Shown one piece after another: positions 2,076-55,018 of a stretch of DNA of 61,773 nt. Position 1 is the stretch's first letter, and each line of letters begins with the position of its first letter. Below the pieces are notes generated by a model. The model was not told the DNA's origin and searched no databases. It worked only from the letters and a program-made list of their open reading frames with translations. The stretch lies in the NCBI GenBank assembly GCA_024276195.1, contig JAJRXR010000027.1, forward strand, positions 1-61,773, in the 5' to 3' direction. A program made the position numbers and the translations under genes. The stretch is from Planctomycetota bacterium (lineage in GTDB: Bacteria > Planctomycetota > Phycisphaerae > Phycisphaerales > UBA1924).

Positions 2076-3203
2076 TCAGGGCCTTTCACCCGCCTGGGCG
2101 TTCGGAGCCCGTGCGGGGTGGAGCTCGATGACGACGGGGTAGTGGTCCGAGGCGTAGCCGGGGAAGGTGTCGAGTTCTCGCCAACTGATCGTGCTCGGGC
2201 GGGCGGGGGTTCCGAGGACGAACTCGGAGGCCGGGTCGCTCAGGGCGCGGGCGAGATCGTTGGCGAGGATCAGGTCGATGCGCCGCCCAGATTCGTGCGA
2301 GGTCCAGGCTTTGGCGGGCGGCGGGTTGTCCTCGAAAAGATCGGTGAAGCCGGCGTTGAGGTAGGCCTGGACGCTGGGGGCGTCGGTCTCGGCGTTGAAA
2401 TCGCCGAGGATGAGCGTGGGGATGGGAGCGCCGCTCTCGTCCGCTTCCGAGAGGAGCGCGAGCAGGCCTTCGGTTTCTTTGTCACGCCAGTAGTCGCTGT
2501 AGCGCCCTGATTTGTGGTGGACGACGAGCAGGCGGAGGCGGAGGGGGGCCTGACCATCCCAGGCGGCGGCGGGGACCTCGACGACGCCCATGAGCGGGGA
2601 GCGGTGGAAGACGATGTCCTCGCCGGCGTACCAGTTTTTGTTTCGGCCGTATTTTTCGGGGTGGACCCCCCCGAGCGGGCGGCGGACCCAGTTTTGGGAT
2701 TCGACGATGGGGTAGCGCGAGAGGATGGCCTGTTCGATGCCGCGCTCATCGCCGGCGTCGATCGAGAGGATGTGCGTGTAGCCCATGTCCTCGAGTCGCC
2801 CGGACATGAACCAGTCGAGCGCGGCGCGAGACTCGATCTCCTGCAAGCAGAGGATGTCGGCGTCGATGGCGCGGATGGCCGCGGCGACGGCGTCGAGCTG
2901 GCCCTCGGGTTTGATGTCGTCGATGTCCTCCTGGCGATCGCTCAGGGTCGGGTCGTCGATGTCGTCGAACAGATTCTCGATGTTGTAGGTCGCGATGCGG
3001 AGGGCGCCGGGTGTGCGCTCGGGGGCGGTGGTTGTCCCGAACCGGGGCGGGAAGAGCGCTTCGACCGCGCTGGCCTGGGCGGCATTCTGCGCCGCGTCCG
3101 GGGCGACCTCTGGGGCCGACTCGGGCTGGGCGTATGCGGACAGCCCGACAGCAAGGGCAGCGGCGAGGGCGGTCAAGGTCAACTGCAATCGTGGGATGCT
3201 CAT
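2076..3203 (-). CDS. Secreted endonuclease/exonuclease/phosphatase family protein
   Basis: A 375-residue protein with a signal peptide (hydrophobic LTLTALAAALAVGLSAYA) followed by the Mg-dependent EEP nuclease/phosphodiesterase fold. Conserved pieces in order are RIATYNIENLF (metal/phosphate-binding Asn and Glu), LQEIE, VVHHKSGR (catalytic His region), LILGDFNAE (Asp/Asn) and YASDHYPVV (the C-terminal Asp-His pair). All expected catalytic positions are present, so an active hydrolase acting outside the cytoplasm is likely; the substrate (nucleic acid, lipid or phosphoester) cannot be read from sequence. The ATG at 3203 was chosen because it begins the signal peptide and has AGGAG about 8 bases upstream; the frame is open further upstream without signal-like sequence. 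Confidence 0.85.
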   Translation of the reverse strand: MSIPRLQLTLTALAAALAVGLSAYAQPESAPEVAPDAAQNAAQASAVEALFPPRFGTTTAPERTPGALRIATYNIENLFDDIDDPTLSDRQEDIDDIKPEGQLDAVAAAIRAIDADILCLQEIESRAALDWFMSGRLEDMGYTHILSIDAGDERGIEQAILSRYPIVESQNWVRRPLGGVHPEKYGRNKNWYAGEDIVFHRSPLMGVVEVPAAAWDGQAPLRLRLLVVHHKSGRYSDYWRDKETEGLLALLSEADESGAPIPTLILGDFNAETDAPSVQAYLNAGFTDLFEDNPPPAKAWTSHESGRRIDLILANDLARALSDPASEFVLGTPARPSTISWRELDTFPGYASDHYPVVIELHPARAPNAQAGERP

Positions 3204-3244
3204 GGGCGAGTCTCCTGCTGGCCCCTGTGGTGAGGGGGTGAACT

Positions 3245-4228
3245 CTAGCGCGCCGCCCCGGCCCGCCCGGAGCCATGGCGGCGACCGAGCTTGGCCCGGA
3301 CAACGACGCGAGACGCCCACGAGCTGGGGGCGTTGATGCGTCCGCCGCGGACGATGCGGGATGGGTCGCGCTGGAGCTCGGTGAGCACGCCCGCGCCGAG
3401 CTCGGTCAGGGAGAGAACGGCGCGCCCGGAATCCGGGAGCATCATCGAGGCGAGTTCCTGCCCGTTGACCAGGCTGGACTGGGCATTCTGAGTCCAGCGG
3501 GCGACGAAGGCGGCGCAGGCGTCGGTGTCGGTCCAGGCGCGCAGCTTGAACGCCGTCAGCCCGAACTCCTCGAAGCTCTCGCTGGGCAGGTGGACCCGGC
3601 GCGGCACGGAATCGAAGTCTCGCGCAAAGTTGCGCAGCACCCCCACCACCCGCATCGAAGCGCCCCAGCGGCGCGCGGTGCGGGCCGCCTCGTGGGCGTC
3701 GGCTTGCGGCGCAAGGCCCGCGATCGCCAGCACGACGATCGCCAGCGATCCCCAGCCGGCGACGGCGCTTTCCTTGAGATCGGCGGTCGTGGTGTGGGTC
3801 CGGGTTTCCAGGTCGCGCCCCATCTCGTCCAGGGCGGAGAGCACCCAGGCGGGGTCGATCGCGTAGGAGCAGACAGCGGCAGAAAATGCGGGCCAGAGCG
3901 GGTCAGCGTGGCGCGGCGCGTTGGCGTCGAGCGCCCGCTCGGTCTGGTCGCGGAGGCGGGCGAGGTTCTGCAGGCGGGCCTCGACGGGCCAGTTGGCGTC
4001 GATGAGATCTCGGGCGGCGCGGTACCACGCCAGGAGCGCGATGAGCGACTCGCGGCGCGGCGAGCCGATCGGGCGCAAGCAGGCGAGGATCGGCTTGCCC
4101 TCACGAGCGCCCCAGTTGGCGCAGTGGAGAAAGGACTTGGCGGTCTCGGTCGGGTCGAGCCCGCTGGCGACGGGCGCCACGCCCGGGGCCTGGCGCCAGC
4201 GTTCGGCGATCGTGTCCCAACTGCTCAT
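3245..4228 (-). CDS. Squalene/phytoene synthase family-like protein
   Basis: A 327-residue, mostly helical protein resembling trans-isoprenyl diphosphate synthases of the squalene/phytoene synthase family (HpnC/HpnD/CrtB group). LLAWYRAARDLIDAN sits where the first Asp-rich substrate motif is expected. RVVGVLRNFARDFDSVPRRVHLP matches the second motif, normally NILRDxxED followed by GRxYLP. Both motifs are degenerate (fewer Asp/Glu than active enzymes), so catalysis is uncertain. The gene is divergent from ispH, which makes an isoprenoid role plausible. The ATG at 4228 starts the recognisable fold and has GGAG upstream; the frame extends upstream without conserved sequence. Confidence 0.55.
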   Translation of the reverse strand: MSSWDTIAERWRQAPGVAPVASGLDPTETAKSFLHCANWGAREGKPILACLRPIGSPRRESLIALLAWYRAARDLIDANWPVEARLQNLARLRDQTERALDANAPRHADPLWPAFSAAVCSYAIDPAWVLSALDEMGRDLETRTHTTTADLKESAVAGWGSLAIVVLAIAGLAPQADAHEAARTARRWGASMRVVGVLRNFARDFDSVPRRVHLPSESFEEFGLTAFKLRAWTDTDACAAFVARWTQNAQSSLVNGQELASMMLPDSGRAVLSLTELGAGVLTELQRDPSRIVRGGRINAPSSWASRVVVRAKLGRRHGSGRAGAAR

Positions 4229-4419
4229 CCACACACTCCGTCCCCCCACACACACCGCCGGGGAGGTGAAACGTACACCATGATCGCGTTTCAACCCAGT
4301 GCGAGAGAGGCCCCGAGGGGGAGAAGGTGGACAACCTGTCGGATGGGCCAGTCCGGGGGCGAGCTATCATCTCGGCGCAGGCACGAACTGATCTCGACCG
4401 ATGATGAAAAGGATCCGGT

Positions 4420-5463
4420 GTGCGCCTTATTCTCGCCAATCCCAGGGGGTTCTGTGCTGGTGTGCGCATGGCGATTGATGTCGTTGACCAGGTTCTGGAC
4501 GTGTTCGAGGGTGAGCCGGTCTTTGTTTATCACGAGATCGTTCACAACCGGCATGTGGTCGATCGGTTCCGAGGACGCGGGGTCACGTTTGTTGAGGATC
4601 TGGGCTCTGTGCCCGAGGGGAGCGTGGTCGTGTTCAGCGCCCACGGGATCAGCCCGGCGGTTCGGGGCGAGGCGCGTGATCGCGGGCTGCGGACGATCGA
4701 CGCGACGTGCCCGCTGGTGACGAAGGTTCACTCGGAGGCAATCCGGTACGCGCGTCAGGGGTACCAGATCCTGCTTGTCGGGCACAGGGACCACCAGGAG
4801 GTCATCGGGACCCGCGGCGAGGCGCCGGAGCGAACGCTGGTCGTCGAATCAGCGGATGATGTCGAGTCGCTCGTGGTCGAGGATCCGGGCAAGCTGGTGT
4901 ACCTGACGCAGACGACGCTCTCGACGGACGACGCCGGGGTGATTGTCGAGGCGATCAAGCGGAGGTTCCCGGGGGTCAAGGCGCCGCCGAGCGAGGATAT
5001 TTGCTACGCGACGACCAACCGCCAGGCGGCGGTCCGCCAGATCGCGCCCGAGTGTGATCTGGTGCTCGTGGTCGGGTCCAAGAACTCGTCGAACTCGGTG
5101 CGCCTGACGGAGATCTCGCAGAACGTCGGGACGCGGGCGAAGCTGCTCGACGATGCGAGCGCCCTGGACGATGCCTGGTTCACGGAGGGGACGGAGACGG
5201 TGCTTGTCACGGCTGGGGCTTCGGCGCCGGAGGATCTGGTCGCGGCGTTGTGCCGAGAGCTTGTCGATCGCTTCGGGGCGACGATCGAGCAGCGGGACGT
5301 GTACCCGGAAGATGTCGAGTTCGGGCTGCCCCTGACACTCAAAAAGGCGATGGTGGAGCGCGGGATCGACCCGAGGGATCGGCGGGTGATGGTCGAGGCG
5401 CCGGTGATCAGCGCCGAGCTGTACGGGGCGACCGACCTGACCATCTCGGCGCGGAAGGCATAA
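4420..5463 (+). CDS. ispH: 4-hydroxy-3-methylbut-2-enyl diphosphate reductase
   Basis: IspH/LytB catalyses the last step of the methylerythritol phosphate pathway, reducing HMBPP to IPP and DMAPP through a [4Fe-4S] cluster. The 347-residue protein has the three cluster cysteines at about C12 (RGFCAGV), C97 (DATCPLV) and C195 (DICYATTNRQ). It also has the catalytic Glu in HQEVIGT (about 127), the substrate histidines near 42 and 75, and the SKNSSNS phosphate-binding segment. The start is a GTG at 4420; the conserved MRLILANPRGFC begins there. It is followed 11 bases later by rlmN, and the squalene/phytoene-synthase-like gene diverges upstream. Length and motifs are normal for the family. Confidence 0.96.
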   Translation: MRLILANPRGFCAGVRMAIDVVDQVLDVFEGEPVFVYHEIVHNRHVVDRFRGRGVTFVEDLGSVPEGSVVVFSAHGISPAVRGEARDRGLRTIDATCPLVTKVHSEAIRYARQGYQILLVGHRDHQEVIGTRGEAPERTLVVESADDVESLVVEDPGKLVYLTQTTLSTDDAGVIVEAIKRRFPGVKAPPSEDICYATTNRQAAVRQIAPECDLVLVVGSKNSSNSVRLTEISQNVGTRAKLLDDASALDDAWFTEGTETVLVTAGASAPEDLVAALCRELVDRFGATIEQRDVYPEDVEFGLPLTLKKAMVERGIDPRDRRVMVEAPVISAELYGATDLTISARKA

Positions 5464-5474
5464 AGCCGAGACGA

Positions 5475-6632
5475 ATGCGCCACCCCGAGCACCACATCTT
5501 CTCCCACACGCCCGAGTCGCTCGCCCGATGGTGCGACGAGCGTTCGATGCCCGCGTTTCGGGCGAAGCAGATACTCGAATGGGTGTACGCCAGGGGCGTG
5601 ATTGACCCTGCGCTGATGACGAATCTCTCGGAGAAAGACCGCGAGGCGCTGGCGCGGGAGATGACCTTTCTCTCTGGGCCGACGGTCGCCCACCAGCTCG
5701 CTTCGGACGGGACGCAGAAGCTACTGATCGAGTGGCCCGATGATCTGACCGAGATCGCGCCCGAGGAGGCGAGCGTCGATCACTCGATGCGGTTGCCGCT
5801 GCTGGGCTCGGAGATGCCGTACTCGAACAGCGCGCGCCAGACCGAGTGTGTGATGATCCCCACGAAGGAAGCTCGTGCGGACGGGATCGCGTCGCGACGG
5901 ACCGCGTGCATCTCGAGCCAGGTCGGGTGCCCGGTGGGGTGCCGGTTCTGCGCCTCGGGGCTGGGTGGGCTGGACGGGAACTTATCAACAGGGCGGATCG
6001 TCGAGCAGGTCTGGCGCCTGGGGCGTCTGGAGCGGGTGGATCGGATCACGAACGTGGTGTTCATGGGGATGGGCGAGCCGCTGGCGAACTTCCGGGCGGT
6101 GACGGACGCGGTGCGCCGGATCACGGCTCCCTGGGGGCTGGGGATCTCGGCGCGGAAGGTGACGATCTCGACGGTGGGGATGCCGCGCGCGATCGAGCGT
6201 TTGGCGGCGGAGCTGGATGTCCCGGTGACGCTGGCGTTGTCGCTGCACGCGCCGAGCGATGAGCTGCGCCGGCGCCTGATCCCGTGGGCGGAGCTGACGA
6301 GCATTGAGGACCTGCTGGGGGCTTGCAGGAAATGGTTCGACAAGACCGGTCGAGAGATAACCCTTGAGTACATCCTGCTGGGAGGCGTGAACGATCAGCC
6401 CGAGCACGCGCAGGAGCTTGCGTGCGTGGCGAAATCTCTCCGTGGGAACGTGAACCTGATCCGGTACAACGAGGTCGCGGGGCTGCCCTACGAGCGTCCG
6501 GACAGCGCCGACGTGGCTCGGTTTCAGGAGATTCTCCGGGATCGCGGCGTCAACGCGCACATCCGGGCGTCGCGCGGGCGTGACATCGCTGCGGCGTGCG
6601 GGCAGCTCCGCCATGAGAGCGCCGGCCCCTGA
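5475..6632 (+). CDS. rlmN: Dual-specificity RNA methyltransferase RlmN
   Basis: A 385-residue radical SAM enzyme that methylates C2 of adenosine in 23S rRNA (A2503) and some tRNAs. The radical SAM cluster motif CxxxCxxC is at C152-C156-C159 (VGCPVGCRFC). The family-typical upstream TECVMIP, the LSLHAP segment and the C-terminal RGRDIAAACGQL with the cysteine used in the methyl transfer intermediate are all present. The ATG at 5475 lies 11 bases after the ispH stop and begins the RlmN N-terminal domain; the frame is open well upstream inside ispH, but that stretch is a shadow. Confidence 0.95.
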   Translation: MRHPEHHIFSHTPESLARWCDERSMPAFRAKQILEWVYARGVIDPALMTNLSEKDREALAREMTFLSGPTVAHQLASDGTQKLLIEWPDDLTEIAPEEASVDHSMRLPLLGSEMPYSNSARQTECVMIPTKEARADGIASRRTACISSQVGCPVGCRFCASGLGGLDGNLSTGRIVEQVWRLGRLERVDRITNVVFMGMGEPLANFRAVTDAVRRITAPWGLGISARKVTISTVGMPRAIERLAAELDVPVTLALSLHAPSDELRRRLIPWAELTSIEDLLGACRKWFDKTGREITLEYILLGGVNDQPEHAQELACVAKSLRGNVNLIRYNEVAGLPYERPDSADVARFQEILRDRGVNAHIRASRGRDIAAACGQLRHESAGP

Positions 6633-6671
6633 CGCCTTGGCCTCCGCCAGGCGCGGGGCTAGTCTGCCCGC

Positions 6672-7448
6672 ATGGTCTGGATTCTTGCACAATCGGGCAA
6701 CGGCACGCCCCCGTCATGGACGGATGAGTTCCACGCGTTCACCAGCTTCCACGCGGTCGCGGTCTCGGTGAGCATCGCGCTCATTGCGTTGATCTGCTCG
6801 CTCGGGCGGAGCTGGAGGGGTGACGCGCGCGAGCGCCGCCTGCGCCGTTCGATCGGGTGGCTCATGTTTGCGTTCTTTGCGTTCAGCACGGTCTGGCGGC
6901 TGACGCCGGGGCAGTTTGATCTGAACGAGTCGCTGCCGCTGCATATGTGCAGGGTCATCGGGTGGGTCTCGGTAATCTCGATGCTGACGGGCGGGTGGCG
7001 CTGGCGGGCGTTGACGTTCTACTGGGGATTCGGGCTGAGCACGCAGGGGTTTGTGACGCCCATGTGGAGCGACGGGTACGCGAGCCTGAACTTCTGGCTG
7101 TACTGGGGGAGCCACGCGCTGATCAGCGGCGCGGCGGCGTACGACCTGTTCGTGCTCGGGTACCGACCGAGCATGCGCGATCTGCGATTGGCGTGGGCCT
7201 GGGGGCTCGTGTTCGTCGTGATTGTCATTGCGTTCAACCAGGTGGCCGGGACGAACTATTCGTACCTGGGCTCAGGACAGTACGAAGGCACGTCGGTCGT
7301 GGACTTTCTGGGGCCATGGCCTCGACGTGCGACGAGGATCGTGCTGCTCGGCGGGCTGGTTTTCTTCGCGCTGCACATCGTTGCTACGCTGGTGCTGCGT
7401 GCGATCGGGGCCTTGCAGGACCGTCAGTCCCCGCGTGAGAGCGCATAA
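6672..7448 (+). CDS. TIGR02206/YwaF-like integral membrane protein, copy 1
   Basis: A 258-residue polytopic membrane protein with about six or seven hydrophobic segments. The pattern of short TM helices with conserved LPLHMCR, FYWGFGLSTQGFVTP and FWLYWGSHA pieces matches the TIGR02206 (YwaF) family, whose function is not established. It is followed 17 bases later by a paralogue with the same layout (7466-8230), so the pair arose by tandem duplication. Neighbours on the right are cell-surface polysaccharide genes, but no functional link is proven. Confidence 0.75.
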   Translation: MVWILAQSGNGTPPSWTDEFHAFTSFHAVAVSVSIALIALICSLGRSWRGDARERRLRRSIGWLMFAFFAFSTVWRLTPGQFDLNESLPLHMCRVIGWVSVISMLTGGWRWRALTFYWGFGLSTQGFVTPMWSDGYASLNFWLYWGSHALISGAAAYDLFVLGYRPSMRDLRLAWAWGLVFVVIVIAFNQVAGTNYSYLGSGQYEGTSVVDFLGPWPRRATRIVLLGGLVFFALHIVATLVLRAIGALQDRQSPRESA

Positions 7449-50159: not shown

Positions 50160-52565
50160 TCAATCGCTCCCGCTCTCATCTTCTTTGCCTTCCTCCGCGA
50201 TCGCTGCATCCAGGGCATATACGCACAGATCTGGAAAGCTCACATCGTTCCTCATCGCGAGGTCGAACAGCTTTCGGAACGAGGCCTTGACATCCTCCGG
50301 GACGACGCCGCCTCTGTACTCGTTTACCCAGCGGAACTGGTCCTGGAGTTCGAGGTAGCCGCGGGGACCGGAGAGCACATAGAAATCAAACGGAGCGGTT
50401 GTCCCGCCAAAATCGGTGGGGATTGTAAATTTTTTCATGCTTCCCGAGGGGATCTCGACCGAACTCTTGGCCTTGAAGGCCTCTCTCGTCTCATCATTCA
50501 TGAACCGTACAAACTTCGCTGTATCCTCGTCCGGCATCCCCTCCGGAAGCTCGTGCCTCTGCGGCAGTGCGCCCTTGTGCTGCTGCACAAACTCCGCTTG
50601 CCCGTAGCGCCCGAAGAGCAACGACCATGATCGGTACAAAAGATCCTGCGACCGTGCGCGGTCGCCGAGCAACGCGGTCACCTTTGCCACCTCGAATCCG
50701 AACCCGGTGTACGCCTCCTTCGCGTACCAGTCCCAGGGGCGATCACGCAGGTGCTCGTCCTGCATCGCGGTCACCGTATCCACAATCTCGGCCGCCTGGT
50801 CGCGTCGCCCATCGTTGTAGAGCGCGAGTGTGCAGATCTTGAGCACCCGGACGAGCGTTTCGATGTCGTTCGGGGGGTCGTAGCCGATGGAGAGGCCGCG
50901 TAATGTTGAATCCCAGAACTCCGCAATATCGTGCCAACGTTCCGCCTCTTGTATCCGCTTCAACGTGCCCAATGTCGCGCCCGCGAATGTGTAGAGCGTG
51001 CGCTGGCGGACGACCCGGTGAGACGAGGCGTACTGCTCGATCAGCTGCTCGGTCATCCGCTCGAGGATCGCCTTCACGGGATCGCCATCTTGAGCCCCCT
51101 CGATGGTGGTCAGCGCAATCTTGATTTGCCAGTCCGACATAATGCTGAGCTGAGCCTCGAATCGCAAACCCTGGTAGCGTTCGACCACGGACTCGATGTC
51201 GCTCAGCGCTCCGGCCGCGGACCTGTCGCCTGATTCTCCCTCGGCGCTCAGTGTCCCCGCGTAGGTGATGATCGCAGCATTGAACGACTCACCAAACAAC
51301 GAGGCTTGCGCGTAGGGGTTGCCCGCTTCGGCCGCGCGCTCGAACCAGCTCTGCGCGAGGCCCGGATCGGCCGGAAGATCCTCGTTCCCCGCTTTGTACA
51401 TCTGAGCGAGCGCGAGCATTGCAGCTGGGTATCCCAGATCAGCGGCCCGCTCGTACCACTCGACCGCCTGGCGCCAGTCCTTGGCAATCGTGCCCGACCC
51501 GTAGCGGTAAGACCACCCAAGATTTTGCATTCCTACGACATCGCCCCCCTCGGCGGCCGCGATGGTGAACGCGGCAAAGGCGTCGTGGTCGACGAGTAGA
51601 CCCCCACTCCCGAGGTCATAGGCGTATCCGAGCGCAGTCATTGCCGCTGGAAGATTCTGGTCGGCGGCCCGCTGCAACCACTCCACCGCGACTTTCTTAC
51701 TCTGCGAGAATCCGATCCCGTCCCAATACAACATGCCAACTGTAAACTGCGCCCCGGCATACCCGGCGTCCGCCGCCTGCAGCCAGGCCCGGAACCTGAT
51801 CGGGCCTCGGCGGAGAAGATACGCCTCGCCGAGTCCCTTCCTGCGCTGCTCGGAGTAGTCGTCCATCTCCGCGATGGTCTGCGGATCGATCGAAGAGTCT
51901 TGCCCAGGATCATCCGTCATGCCTGCGGTCTTTAGGGGATCTGAGCCCGCCGGTTCCAACGTGAGCGGCTCATTTCCCGCCACCGGCGAACTTCCCTTGG
52001 CGCCCCCCCACCCTCTGATGGTGATCCACGTCCCCGCGACAATCACGGCGAGCAGGGCGGCGCCCCCGACCATGAGCAGGACCCGATGCCGAGAGGCGGG
52101 CTTGCCCGGCGGCGCAACCCAGGACGTCGAGGAGGGTGAGAGCGCTGCGATCGGATCGCTTGGATGCTCCAAGATCGCCCGCACCTTCGATCCGAACTGC
52201 TGTAGATGGCGCTCCAGTGGCGGCGTGATCGCGTCCATCCAGTGGGCGGAACTGAGGAAGAACTCCAGCTCGCCTTCCGGCACGCAGTCCTCGATGCGGA
52301 GCGGGATCACGGTGATCCCCCGCTTGATCGCGAGTTCCACCTCGCGCTGGACATGCTCGGAATCGTTCGAGCTCTTCGAGAATACGAGCACCATCGCCTG
52401 GCTCTCGCTGATCGCCGTCACGATGGCCTTGGGCCAACTGGCGCCCGGCATGATGTTCCGTGGCGCGATCCAGCACGCGACACCTGATTGCTCCAGTTGA
52501 GCAACGACTGCATCCGCTGGGATGCGATCACGTTGGGCGTGGCTGATGAATACGCTGTGCGGCAT
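50160..52565 (-). CDS. TIR-domain protein with TM helix and SEL1-like repeats
   Basis: An 801-residue protein. The TIR domain (about 1-115) starts MPHSVFISHAQRDR, continues with GVACWIAPRNIMPGASW, and has SKSSNDSEHVQREVELAI, where Glu75 is in the position of the NADase catalytic glutamate. A Ser/Pro-rich linker leads to one TM helix (161-184). Then come SEL1-like repeats (about 275-460; AQFTVGMLYWDGIG, AMTALGYAYDLGSGG, GMQNLGWSYRYGSG, AMLALAQMYKAGNE) and a helical C-terminus. TIR domains in bacteria are commonly NAD+-consuming or signal-producing effectors of anti-phage systems; repeats often sense or assemble. The ATG at 52565 begins the TIR fold. It lies downstream of the SLOG-4TM gene on the same strand, separated by an IS3 remnant. 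Confidence 0.8.
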   Translation of the reverse strand: MPHSVFISHAQRDRIPADAVVAQLEQSGVACWIAPRNIMPGASWPKAIVTAISESQAMVLVFSKSSNDSEHVQREVELAIKRGITVIPLRIEDCVPEGELEFFLSSAHWMDAITPPLERHLQQFGSKVRAILEHPSDPIAALSPSSTSWVAPPGKPASRHRVLLMVGGAALLAVIVAGTWITIRGWGGAKGSSPVAGNEPLTLEPAGSDPLKTAGMTDDPGQDSSIDPQTIAEMDDYSEQRRKGLGEAYLLRRGPIRFRAWLQAADAGYAGAQFTVGMLYWDGIGFSQSKKVAVEWLQRAADQNLPAAMTALGYAYDLGSGGLLVDHDAFAAFTIAAAEGGDVVGMQNLGWSYRYGSGTIAKDWRQAVEWYERAADLGYPAAMLALAQMYKAGNEDLPADPGLAQSWFERAAEAGNPYAQASLFGESFNAAIITYAGTLSAEGESGDRSAAGALSDIESVVERYQGLRFEAQLSIMSDWQIKIALTTIEGAQDGDPVKAILERMTEQLIEQYASSHRVVRQRTLYTFAGATLGTLKRIQEAERWHDIAEFWDSTLRGLSIGYDPPNDIETLVRVLKICTLALYNDGRRDQAAEIVDTVTAMQDEHLRDRPWDWYAKEAYTGFGFEVAKVTALLGDRARSQDLLYRSWSLLFGRYGQAEFVQQHKGALPQRHELPEGMPDEDTAKFVRFMNDETREAFKAKSSVEIPSGSMKKFTIPTDFGGTTAPFDFYVLSGPRGYLELQDQFRWVNEYRGGVVPEDVKASFRKLFDLAMRNDVSFPDLCVYALDAAIAEEGKEDESGSD

Positions 52566-52779
52566 TGGACAGACTCTTGAGGCTAACTCCTTTCGGCGTC
52601 TGTTGCAAACAAGTCCCAACTGGGATGGGGCCTGCGGCTGTATACATGTCCCCATACGGATTCTGAAGAGGGTCAGATATCAGTCCGGTTGCGTCACATG
52701 TGCCACTCACCAGTTGCAGCAACGAAGGCCCGGATAGTCTCTTCAACAAAGTGGAAGCTGCCCCCTCTCACGGGGTCCA

Positions 52780-52971
52780 GTTCGAGTGTTCGTCTCTGCT
52801 GAACCAAGGCGGCACGAGTACAACACGATCCGTCCGCACAGCTCACTGGTATACCGGTCACCGGCCCCCACGGCGATCGCATCGGAGACCTGCTCCGCTG
52901 CACTCCGCACGCCTCTGATGGGGGGAGGTAGGACTCGCACTAACTTTGGTACGAAACTTGGGGGCGGGTCA
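52780..52971 (+). mobile_element. IS3-family remnant (end of transposase OrfB and right end)
   Basis: The plus strand encodes HEYNTIRPHSSLVYRSPAPTA, the well-known C-terminal motif of IS3-group transposases, normally YNTIRPHSSLGYRPPAPEA. It is followed by CACTAACTTTGGTACGAAACTTGG and a GGGGGCGGGTCA end typical of such elements. Nothing upstream of 52780 continues the transposase, so only the 3' end remains. It ends 14 bases from the stop of the SLOG gene, inside the 419-base gap before the TIR gene; no other gene is seen in that gap. Confidence 0.75.
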
Positions 52972-52984
52972 ATCCCCCGTTTTG

Positions 52985-54712
52985 TCAATGGCCCATGTTC
53001 TTAGAAACCGTGTACCATTCAAACAACTCGTCGAGCAGCACGTCCTCCGTGTCCTGCGCGGTGCGCCTCAGACTCCCCTCGGTCTTCAGTCCCGGAATGA
53101 TTTTCTTCTGGCGTTTGAGCCGGTAGAGAACCGCCCCGTACCGTTCTGCTCGCCGATCGGCATCGAGAGACACGATTAGCGACGTCGCGCCGCCCGCGAT
53201 CAGCGGGAGCACCACGGGCAAGAGCACCGCGAAGGTCGCCGCGAAGAGCTGCTCGGCGACATCGTCCGCGTGGTAGAACTTCAGCCACAGCGCAGTTCCG
53301 ACGATCAGGGGCGCGAGCACCGACGCGATGAGCGCCACCCGCCCGAGCCATCGGTTGAACATCCCGGCCCGGGGCTGCTTTTTTGAGAAGTGCTCGATCT
53401 GGTTTTCGACCCGGCCCGTGAGGTATTCTGCTCTCATCTGCTCGAAGGGTACTTTGGGCGCCGCCCGGCAAGCCGCCAGCCCCACCGAGAGCACATACCT
53501 GCGCCAGCGGTCGTCGAGACGGACCACCTTGGATCGCAAGGGGTCGAGCAACCCCGCAGACTCGATCAGCCCGTGACAGAGTTCGGCGGCAAACCTGTTG
53601 CGCCGCCATTTGTGGTGCGAATGACTCCAGGCCGCGTGCAACCAAATGAGCAGAGCAATAAAGACAAGCACCAACTCCAGCGTTGTCATGAGCACGATCG
53701 GATCAAGGGGATACCGATCTTGTGCATCACTCTCATGAGCCTCTTGATCTGTGGTCACCGTGAGTCCGCTATCTTGTGTCGTTCCAATCGGGACCGGAAC
53801 ATCGGCATGCCCACCATTATCGTGTGGGGCGGGGCTCTCGTGACTCGCTCCATCGACCTGGCTATCTGCGCCAAGATTGTCAACTTGATGGAGCAGCGGC
53901 GAGTATGCGGCCGTGAATGCCGCAAGCAGTGCCGCGGTAAAGTGCATCAGCATTGCGAGGATCAGCCCACGCCGAAATCGCCCGCCTGCGGCGTTGGCGA
54001 CCTCGTCATGCAGGATGAACTGCTGCCAGACGGTCCCGTCGCCGTCCCGATCATCGGGGCTCCGCACGATTGGCTTTCGATGCTGCGCAATGTCCTCTTT
54101 GACCTGATCGAACGTCTGATCAGGAGCCGGCCAAGCCTCCCACTCCCCTCGCTGGCGGACCTCCGCCCCGTTTCCCGGGTCAATTACGATGGTCGGAATC
54201 CCGACCCGCTCCGCCTCATCGACAAACTCTGGGGTTCCCCCGATCTGGCTCGTTTCCTGCCCGTTCCAAACCGCCAGGACGGCATCGCACGCCTCGAGCA
54301 TCTGCAAGTTGGCCTCGTGGTAGCAACCGGGGCGAGAGTTATCTCCGATTGCGATTCGGAACGAGCCTCCACCCTCCCCCGCCTTGGCCCTCTCGATTGC
54401 CAGCTCTGCGCGCTGCAGATCTTCACTGTCCTCCTCCCCGAAGTCCCGGAGAAAGCTCGCCTCGGGCATCGGCAGTATCACATGGACGGGCAATCCCAGC
54501 GCCTCGGCAGCATCGACCGCGACCAAATCCGCGCCCGAAGCCACCCCGGTCAGCAGCTCGATTGTTCCACCCCGCGCATTCGCCCGCTTGTTGAGCTCGC
54601 GGAGTGACTCTTCAACTTGCCCGCGACATGCCGCAAGTTCCTCTCGCGATCTCCCGGGCGCAGAGCTCGGCCGGTGACCTGAGAAAGCAACGATCCAGAT
54701 CGGACTCAGCAC
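52985..54712 (-). CDS. SLOG-like Rossmannoid domain fused to a four-TM region
   Basis: A 575-residue protein. The first ~190 residues form a SLOG/DprA-type Rossmannoid domain. IWIVAFSGHRP is strand 1, TGVASGADLVAVDAAEALGLPVHVILPMPEASFLRDF the GxAxGAD nucleotide-binding region, and DAVLAVWNGQETSQIGGTPEFVDEAERVGIPTIVI the later strands. Then come TM helices near RGLILAMLMHFTAALLAAFTAAY and VLMTTLELVLVFIALLIWLHAAW, an HKWRRNRFAAELCHGL segment, and two more TM helices (VALIASVLAPLIVGTALWL; FAVLLPVVLPLIAGGATSLIV). SLOG domains sense or process nucleotide signals and are often joined to membrane effectors. The GTG at 54712 was chosen for GGGGAGG 6 bases upstream; a TTG at 54769 would add 19 residues. 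Confidence 0.7.
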   Translation of the reverse strand: MLSPIWIVAFSGHRPSSAPGRSREELAACRGQVEESLRELNKRANARGGTIELLTGVASGADLVAVDAAEALGLPVHVILPMPEASFLRDFGEEDSEDLQRAELAIERAKAGEGGGSFRIAIGDNSRPGCYHEANLQMLEACDAVLAVWNGQETSQIGGTPEFVDEAERVGIPTIVIDPGNGAEVRQRGEWEAWPAPDQTFDQVKEDIAQHRKPIVRSPDDRDGDGTVWQQFILHDEVANAAGGRFRRGLILAMLMHFTAALLAAFTAAYSPLLHQVDNLGADSQVDGASHESPAPHDNGGHADVPVPIGTTQDSGLTVTTDQEAHESDAQDRYPLDPIVLMTTLELVLVFIALLIWLHAAWSHSHHKWRRNRFAAELCHGLIESAGLLDPLRSKVVRLDDRWRRYVLSVGLAACRAAPKVPFEQMRAEYLTGRVENQIEHFSKKQPRAGMFNRWLGRVALIASVLAPLIVGTALWLKFYHADDVAEQLFAATFAVLLPVVLPLIAGGATSLIVSLDADRRAERYGAVLYRLKRQKKIIPGLKTEGSLRRTAQDTEDVLLDELFEWYTVSKNMGH

Positions 54713-55018
54713 AACGCGCCTCCCCACTCGCTCATGATGAGGCCGGATAGCAGTCGCCGCCTCGATCAAACACCTCTCGGTACCTTACTGAGAGGCTTGC
54801 CAACACGCCAGCCCCGCTCTCGAGTGGAGCACCTCCCCCCCAACTGTGGATGCCACGAGATCTGGCTCTGGACCTGACCGGAGAACAAAGCCCGATCACC
54901 CCAGTTCGCCCTCGTCGGATTCCGAACTCGCGCAGGATCGGGCTGTGGGCTGCGTGTTGCCGCAGACGACACGTGATCTCCCAGTAGCACCACAGGGAGC
55001 GAGTCGCAGAACTGCGTC
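54713..55018. other. Gap upstream of the SLOG gene
   Basis: No gene seen; it would hold the SLOG gene promoter. The right edge abuts the second copy of the 19-bp IS-end repeat. Confidence 0.4.

Follow-up and report, generated by a model that had tools for sequence, protein, structure and literature searches.

The systems closest to the one described here are the Thoeris systems, in which, according to PMC11204291, a TIR protein is combined either with a SIR2-SLOG protein (type I) or with a transmembrane (TM)-macro protein (type II). A second point of comparison is provided by the SLATT effectors, for which PMC7159879 cites Burroughs et al. 2015, and a TIR gene adjoining a 2TM SLATT gene is reported for some phages in PMC9503650. 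Here we describe two neighbouring genes in a Planctomycetota bacterium (GenBank assembly GCA_024276195.1), one for a TIR-TM-SEL1-DUF2610 protein and one for a SLOG protein with four TM helices (SLOG-4TM). They lie on contig JAJRXR010000027.1, a stretch of 61,773 nucleotides referred to as the window, which is one of the 88 contigs of the 3.04 Mb source genome. We consider it probable that the pair forms a two-gene, Thoeris-like membrane signalling system. A first-pass annotation, made from the sequence alone, had suggested a candidate membrane conflict system at this site; this suggestion is partly borne out by the recurrent pairing of TIR and SLOG-4TM genes and by the kept catalytic glutamate, but the pairing is not universal.

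Both genes are on the minus strand at the place originally assigned to them, and each is a single open frame. The longest frame of the TIR gene (50160..52655) has 831 residues, with Met31 (52565) as the likely start according to the alignment with the homologue in G001, a genome of the same genus. Pfam detects TIR_2 (E 1.5e-22), Sel1 (E 3.6e-22) and, at the C terminus, DUF2610 (E 5.4e-22), the last of which the first-pass annotation had overlooked while correctly naming the TM helix and the SEL1 repeats. The TIR domain (residues 35-143; 52227..52553) carries a glutamate in the NADase position, as had been noted, at residue 105 in full-frame numbering, and its model matches TIR domains with bound nicotinamide adenine dinucleotide (NAD). 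Residues and fold fit a predicted NADase, and the protein has the catalytic glutamate expected of a Thoeris TIR protein. The domain is followed by a single predicted TM helix (residues 193-211; 52023..52079), placed by hydropathy, with the TIR side predicted inside from the lysine and arginine (K/R) charge. The SEL1 repeats (residues about 290-455; 51291..51788) are predicted to lie outside the cytoplasmic membrane, and DUF2610 comprises residues 740-818 (50202..50438). DUF2610 is present in 3 of 61 genomes searched, the source genome included; in G004 it matches a separate frame of 235 residues, in contrast to the TIR-fused domain of the window. In cyanobacteria, according to PMC8283722, it is an accessory domain in two true orthocaspases.

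The SLOG-4TM gene (52985..54769, minus strand) encodes 594 residues. Its SLOG domain (residues 24-212; 54134..54700), with the motifs GHR (31-33), GAD (79-81) and GGT (177-179), is only weakly detected by Pfam (YAcAr, E 0.13), while the modelled fold, in agreement with the first reading of the gene, resembles YpsA, ThsA and TRPM channels and has the Rossmannoid fold, the conserved loop after strand 1 and the GG motif of the SLOG superfamily. The assignment is based on the model, because a search of our alignment A6 against the sequences of solved structures gave no match. Hydropathy places four TM segments at residues 269-287, 358-376, 478-496 and 508-526 and, together with charge, suggests that they are arranged as two hairpins. 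The first, TM1-TM2 (residues 269-376; 53642..53965), is weakly SLATT_3-like, and the second, TM3-TM4 (residues 478-526; 53192..53338), lies within a weakly SLATT_1-like region (449-585). Pfam finds neither a SIR2 nor a macro domain in this protein. Between the two genes lies a C-terminal scrap of an IS3-family transposase (IS, insertion sequence; 52810..52863) on the opposite, plus strand; the IS3 remnant mentioned in the first-pass annotation is thus real but tiny, comprising 18 residues of rve_3 with an E-value of 3.3e-4, under the cut-off. Four further small open reading frames (ORFs) of the region were scanned and have no convincing Pfam match. Searched at E 1e-5, TIR_2 occurs once in the source genome, and neither of the two proteins has a second match there.

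Relatives of the pair were sought in 101 genomes, the source genome included, of which 8 have a match to the SLOG protein and 39 to some part of the TIR protein, in most cases SEL1. In G001 both genes adjoin with the TIR gene first, a gap of 50 bp and no IS; the proteins are 43-46% identical to those of the window and have the same TIR-TM-SEL1-DUF2610 layout. The pair therefore exists independently of the IS, with the order swapped in one of the two genomes. SLOG-4TM genes also stand beside differently built TIR genes, namely TIR-TM (G068, G010), TIR-nSTAND (G085) and TIR-TM-WD40 (G008). A profile of six SLOG-4TM proteins matches at least 24 of 392 Planctomycetota genomes at E 1e-6, a count that includes the source genome of the window and two further source genomes; many of the 24 are SLOG-only, and ten give new SLOG and TM loci. 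A three-row profile run on genome contigs gave six named loci, one in Planctomycetota (G357 again), three in Chlorobiaceae and two in Acidobacteriota. Among 297 genomes of the acidobacterial phylum at least 12 match at E 1e-20, including the sources of L103 and L105, and this sample added six further full-length loci from five genomes. The top three to four candidates per genome were scored in the phylum samples, and the match counts are lower bounds. With the window SLOG protein alone as query, neither genomes nor viral sequences yielded relatives; plasmids held no match. The name SLOG-4TM follows the window protein; other members show two to five TM segments by hydropathy.

Besides the window, 26 SLOG-4TM loci were counted. 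A TIR gene directly adjoins SLOG-4TM at 16 of them (G001, G008, G010, G068, G085, G381, G273, G247, G431, G327, G267, L102, L103, L105, L106 and L131) and lies within two genes at 17 of them (L104 in addition), in Planctomycetota, Chlorobiota and Acidobacteriota. The two genes are thus not rare neighbours, and their partnership is not an accident of the source genome. In the Planctomycetota subset, TIR adjacency at 11 of 15 loci, window excluded, compares with 0.10 expected for randomly placed TIR genes, a model that ignores the clustering of defence genes, so that the true excess is smaller. TIR-partnered loci are scattered over the SLOG-4TM tree and its three phyla, which can reflect repeated gain or repeated loss; several rows of the tree are long-branched. 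TIR pairing as the mark of one branch was rejected, as it takes 9 changes, a number not below that obtained when the labels are shuffled. Among 137 loci searched, none has TIR fused to SLOG or to the TM part. At L104 the TIR-TM-SEL1 and SLOG-4TM genes are separated by a TrkA_N gene (4924-6831, plus strand), whose product has a TM helix and is possibly of ion-channel or transport type.

The partner TIR proteins share features beyond their position. The catalytic glutamate is kept in 24 of 26 TIR domains at paired loci, as judged with a local profile made from eight glutamate-bearing TIR domains, which may favour such domains. A TM segment follows the TIR domain at 14 of 18 paired loci, compared with 4 of 20 TIR proteins from other sites in these genomes (Fisher p 0.0009). 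The difference persists without the window and the weak L101 (12 of 16; p 0.002) and when counted over partner proteins (15 of 25; p 0.014); the 20 controls were drawn from 114 TIR hits nearly in score order, with two passed over. Over the 14 TM-bearing partners 75 K/R residues precede the TM segment and 31 follow it, a positive-inside bias from which the TIR side is predicted to be cytosolic. By contrast with the constant SLOG-4TM protein, the C-terminal modules of the partners vary and comprise SEL1, SEL1-DUF2610, WD40, PD40, nSTAND, NPHP3-TPR and kinase-FGE; two long TIR partners at L105 are PD40-like by eye. At L081 a TIR-FHA protein of 432 residues (2549-3847, minus strand) is encoded past the TIR-NPHP3-TPR partner, with one opposite-strand ORF between.

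We propose that the TIR protein acts as a one-pass membrane receptor, with the TIR domain in the cytosol and the SEL1 and DUF2610 parts on the outer face of the cytoplasmic membrane. A trigger sensed by the outer part would cluster the TIR domains, which would then cleave NAD+ to an ADP-ribose-type messenger. Binding of this messenger by the SLOG domain of the neighbouring protein would lead its four TM helices, arranged as two SLATT-like hairpins, to open or rupture the membrane. The outcome would be growth stop or cell death, most likely aborting phage infection. A bolder version, which we advance tentatively, is a circuit of the Toll-like-receptor type with an outer swappable sensor and an inner TIR enzyme, in which phage attachment or envelope damage would yield an ADP-ribose messenger for a SLOG-gated channel of TRPM-like layout. 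Such a circuit would sense from outside, whereas Thoeris systems sense phage parts inside the cell. TRPM proteins, with six TM helices per subunit, likewise have SLOG fused to a channel, but nothing found here points to a common origin of the TM parts.

Several observations weigh against the proposed two-gene system. Nine of the 26 loci have no TIR gene within two genes (G357, G350, G403, G194, L127, L128, L129, L130 and L132). Among these, G357, which is the same gene as L101, has a weak CAP12-like TIR neighbour under the cut-off, left out of the 16 and 17 and included in the 14 of 18; G350 has two NACHT-FGE genes as neighbours, and in G194 a Roc-TIR gene is the third gene. Only one of six new acidobacterial loci has a TIR gene at this distance, or three of eight with L103 and L105, and two of the five misses (L128, L129) are near contig ends. 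Gene order varies, with SLOG first in the window, TIR first in G001 and several loci divergent; because the order is not conserved, we do not speak of a fixed operon. The IS scrap splits the window pair, and co-transcription may have been lost there. The window TIR protein itself has a slight charge bias (three K/R before the TM helix, two after), and the TIR partners at L081, L091, L102 and L106 have no TM segment. Similarity of the SLOG-4TM protein to SLATT, for which a profile search had been suggested, was found for SLATT_1 (Pfam E 0.0012, 19.3 bits with a cut-off of 26.3; NCBIfam E 4.7e-5, 23.4 with a cut-off of 41) and SLATT_3 (E 0.056, 14.1 bits with a cut-off of 26.3), in each case under the curated cut-off. 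The model of this protein has a mean predicted local distance difference test score of 55.8, with the TM part mostly below 70 and hence of low confidence. Finally, among the defence-specific hidden Markov models of PADLOC, the ThsA model matches none of 11 SLOG-4TM proteins, and of 10 relatives scanned nine are without any match, while the tenth has two weak ones. The IS scrap, the unconserved order and the nine loci without TIR would also suit the view that the genes work independently and are neighbours only through lying in a defence-rich or rearranged region. We regard this as very improbable in view of the adjacency in Planctomycetota, even with its excess overestimated, and of the overlaps or gaps below 60 bp at seven loci (L041, L043, L044, L091, L093, L095, L131), to which the short gap in G001 can be added.

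The neighbours of the SLOG-4TM genes bear on the likely signal. At L081, L091 and L132 an immediate neighbour of SLOG-4TM is a gene with RyR (PF02026) and AAA-like matches, and at L129 (G745:C120) a RelA/SpoT-RyR gene (3895-6429, minus strand) is one small ORF away. The protein encoded by the latter has a sub-threshold TRPM-type SLOG match (LSDAT_prok) between the two domains, which places nucleotide-signal parts in one protein. RyR domains degrade or sequester cyclic ADP-ribose (cADPR) signals according to PMC13232231, which also discusses RyR in animal cADPR/ADP-ribose (ADPR) calcium signalling. In contrast to phage anti-defence RyR proteins, the RyR genes near SLOG-4TM are bacterial and of AAA-like-RyR or RelA-RyR type. 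These neighbours lend indirect support to ADPR-type ligands. They also bear on the possibility that the effector is the TIR protein, acting as a membrane-tethered NADase that depletes NAD+, with SLOG-4TM as its controlling sensor or as a remover of its product. The membrane anchor of the TIR protein would be compatible with this, but SLOG-4TM proteins that have RyR neighbours and no TIR fit a role as receiver for signal proteins of different kinds, and the variable sensor-like parts sit on the TIR partners; we therefore judge it fairly unlikely.

A role in envelope or developmental signalling instead of phage defence would be in keeping with the SEL1, PD40 and WD40 modules behind the TM segment, which might be seen as resembling one-component receptors, and with a PRPP (phosphoribosyl pyrophosphate) synthetase gene and an FG-GAP gene beside two TIR-less loci (L127, L130). 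Sel1 after a TM segment is called peptidoglycan-associating in PMC7159879. However, TIR, RyR, NACHT, nSTAND and SLATT-like domains belong to conflict systems, and the patchy matches in the two phylum samples, in which SLOG-only and source genomes are counted, are unsuited to a housekeeping role, which makes this explanation quite unlikely.

The proposed two-gene system would work like Thoeris if the signalling outlined above holds. It is not filed under a named Thoeris type, because the window SLOG protein has neither the SIR2-SLOG nor the TM-macro build of a ThsA effector. ThsA of type I binds 3'cADPR. Compared with type I (ThsB TIR and ThsA SIR2-SLOG), no SIR2 was found here and the effector part consists of four TM helices, while the TIR protein is often membrane-anchored and carries a large extra module. 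As in type II (PMC11204291), a TIR signal would reach an effector that sits in the membrane and presumably perturbs it, but the receiver is SLOG and not macro, with four TM helices and not two. The pair would thus receive the signal as in type I, with an outcome resembling that of type II. SLATT effectors, which Burroughs et al. in 2015 reportedly found coupled to SLOG or SMODS, similarly bring together a domain that senses nucleotides and SLATT-like TM hairpins with a predicted pore-forming role; here, in contrast, one protein carries SLOG together with two weakly SLATT-like hairpins and is often paired with a TM-anchored TIR. The literature searched holds no description of a TM-anchored TIR with SLOG-4TM; it included neither Burroughs 2015 nor the 2025 preprint by Yirmiya on TIR systems, which may list this variant.

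The 26 loci were delimited as follows. Loci with no TM segment in the C-terminal part of the SLOG frame were dropped (G063, G416 at two places, G136-C277, two in G311, G143, G442, G247-C185, G179, G201 and the acidobacterial L133-L137), and G136-C201 (two), G112 (two), G218, G432, G329 (a TM-part fragment) and G052 (a short frame) are also outside the set. Some dropped loci have a TIR gene near (G311 377307, G112-C46 and, two genes away, L133-L135). L133-L135, from three acidobacteria, form a recurrent set of a TM-less SLOG protein, a gene of about 900 residues and a TIR gene of about 1070 residues. Within the 26, the SLOG frame of G327 is without its N-terminal part, and L106, whose SLOG gene is split over two frames, was not placed in the tree. 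In the acidobacterial G468, contig C68 (127-17877) holds six TIR_2 matches in 18 kb, an apparent TIR array apart from the SLOG-4TM locus of that genome.

The result is a concrete, testable set of gene pairs. They recur in three phyla and, at some loci, near RyR genes, and so connect components of the TIR, SLOG-plus-TM and RyR kinds that also have relatives in animal cADPR/ADPR calcium signalling. If the proposed system is true, the effectors of TIR-to-SLOG signalling would include not just NAD+-depleting proteins but also a SLOG-gated membrane effector. Besides cytosolic TIR sensors there would be TIR receptors that span the membrane and have outer modules open to exchange, in an arrangement like that of animal Toll receptors.
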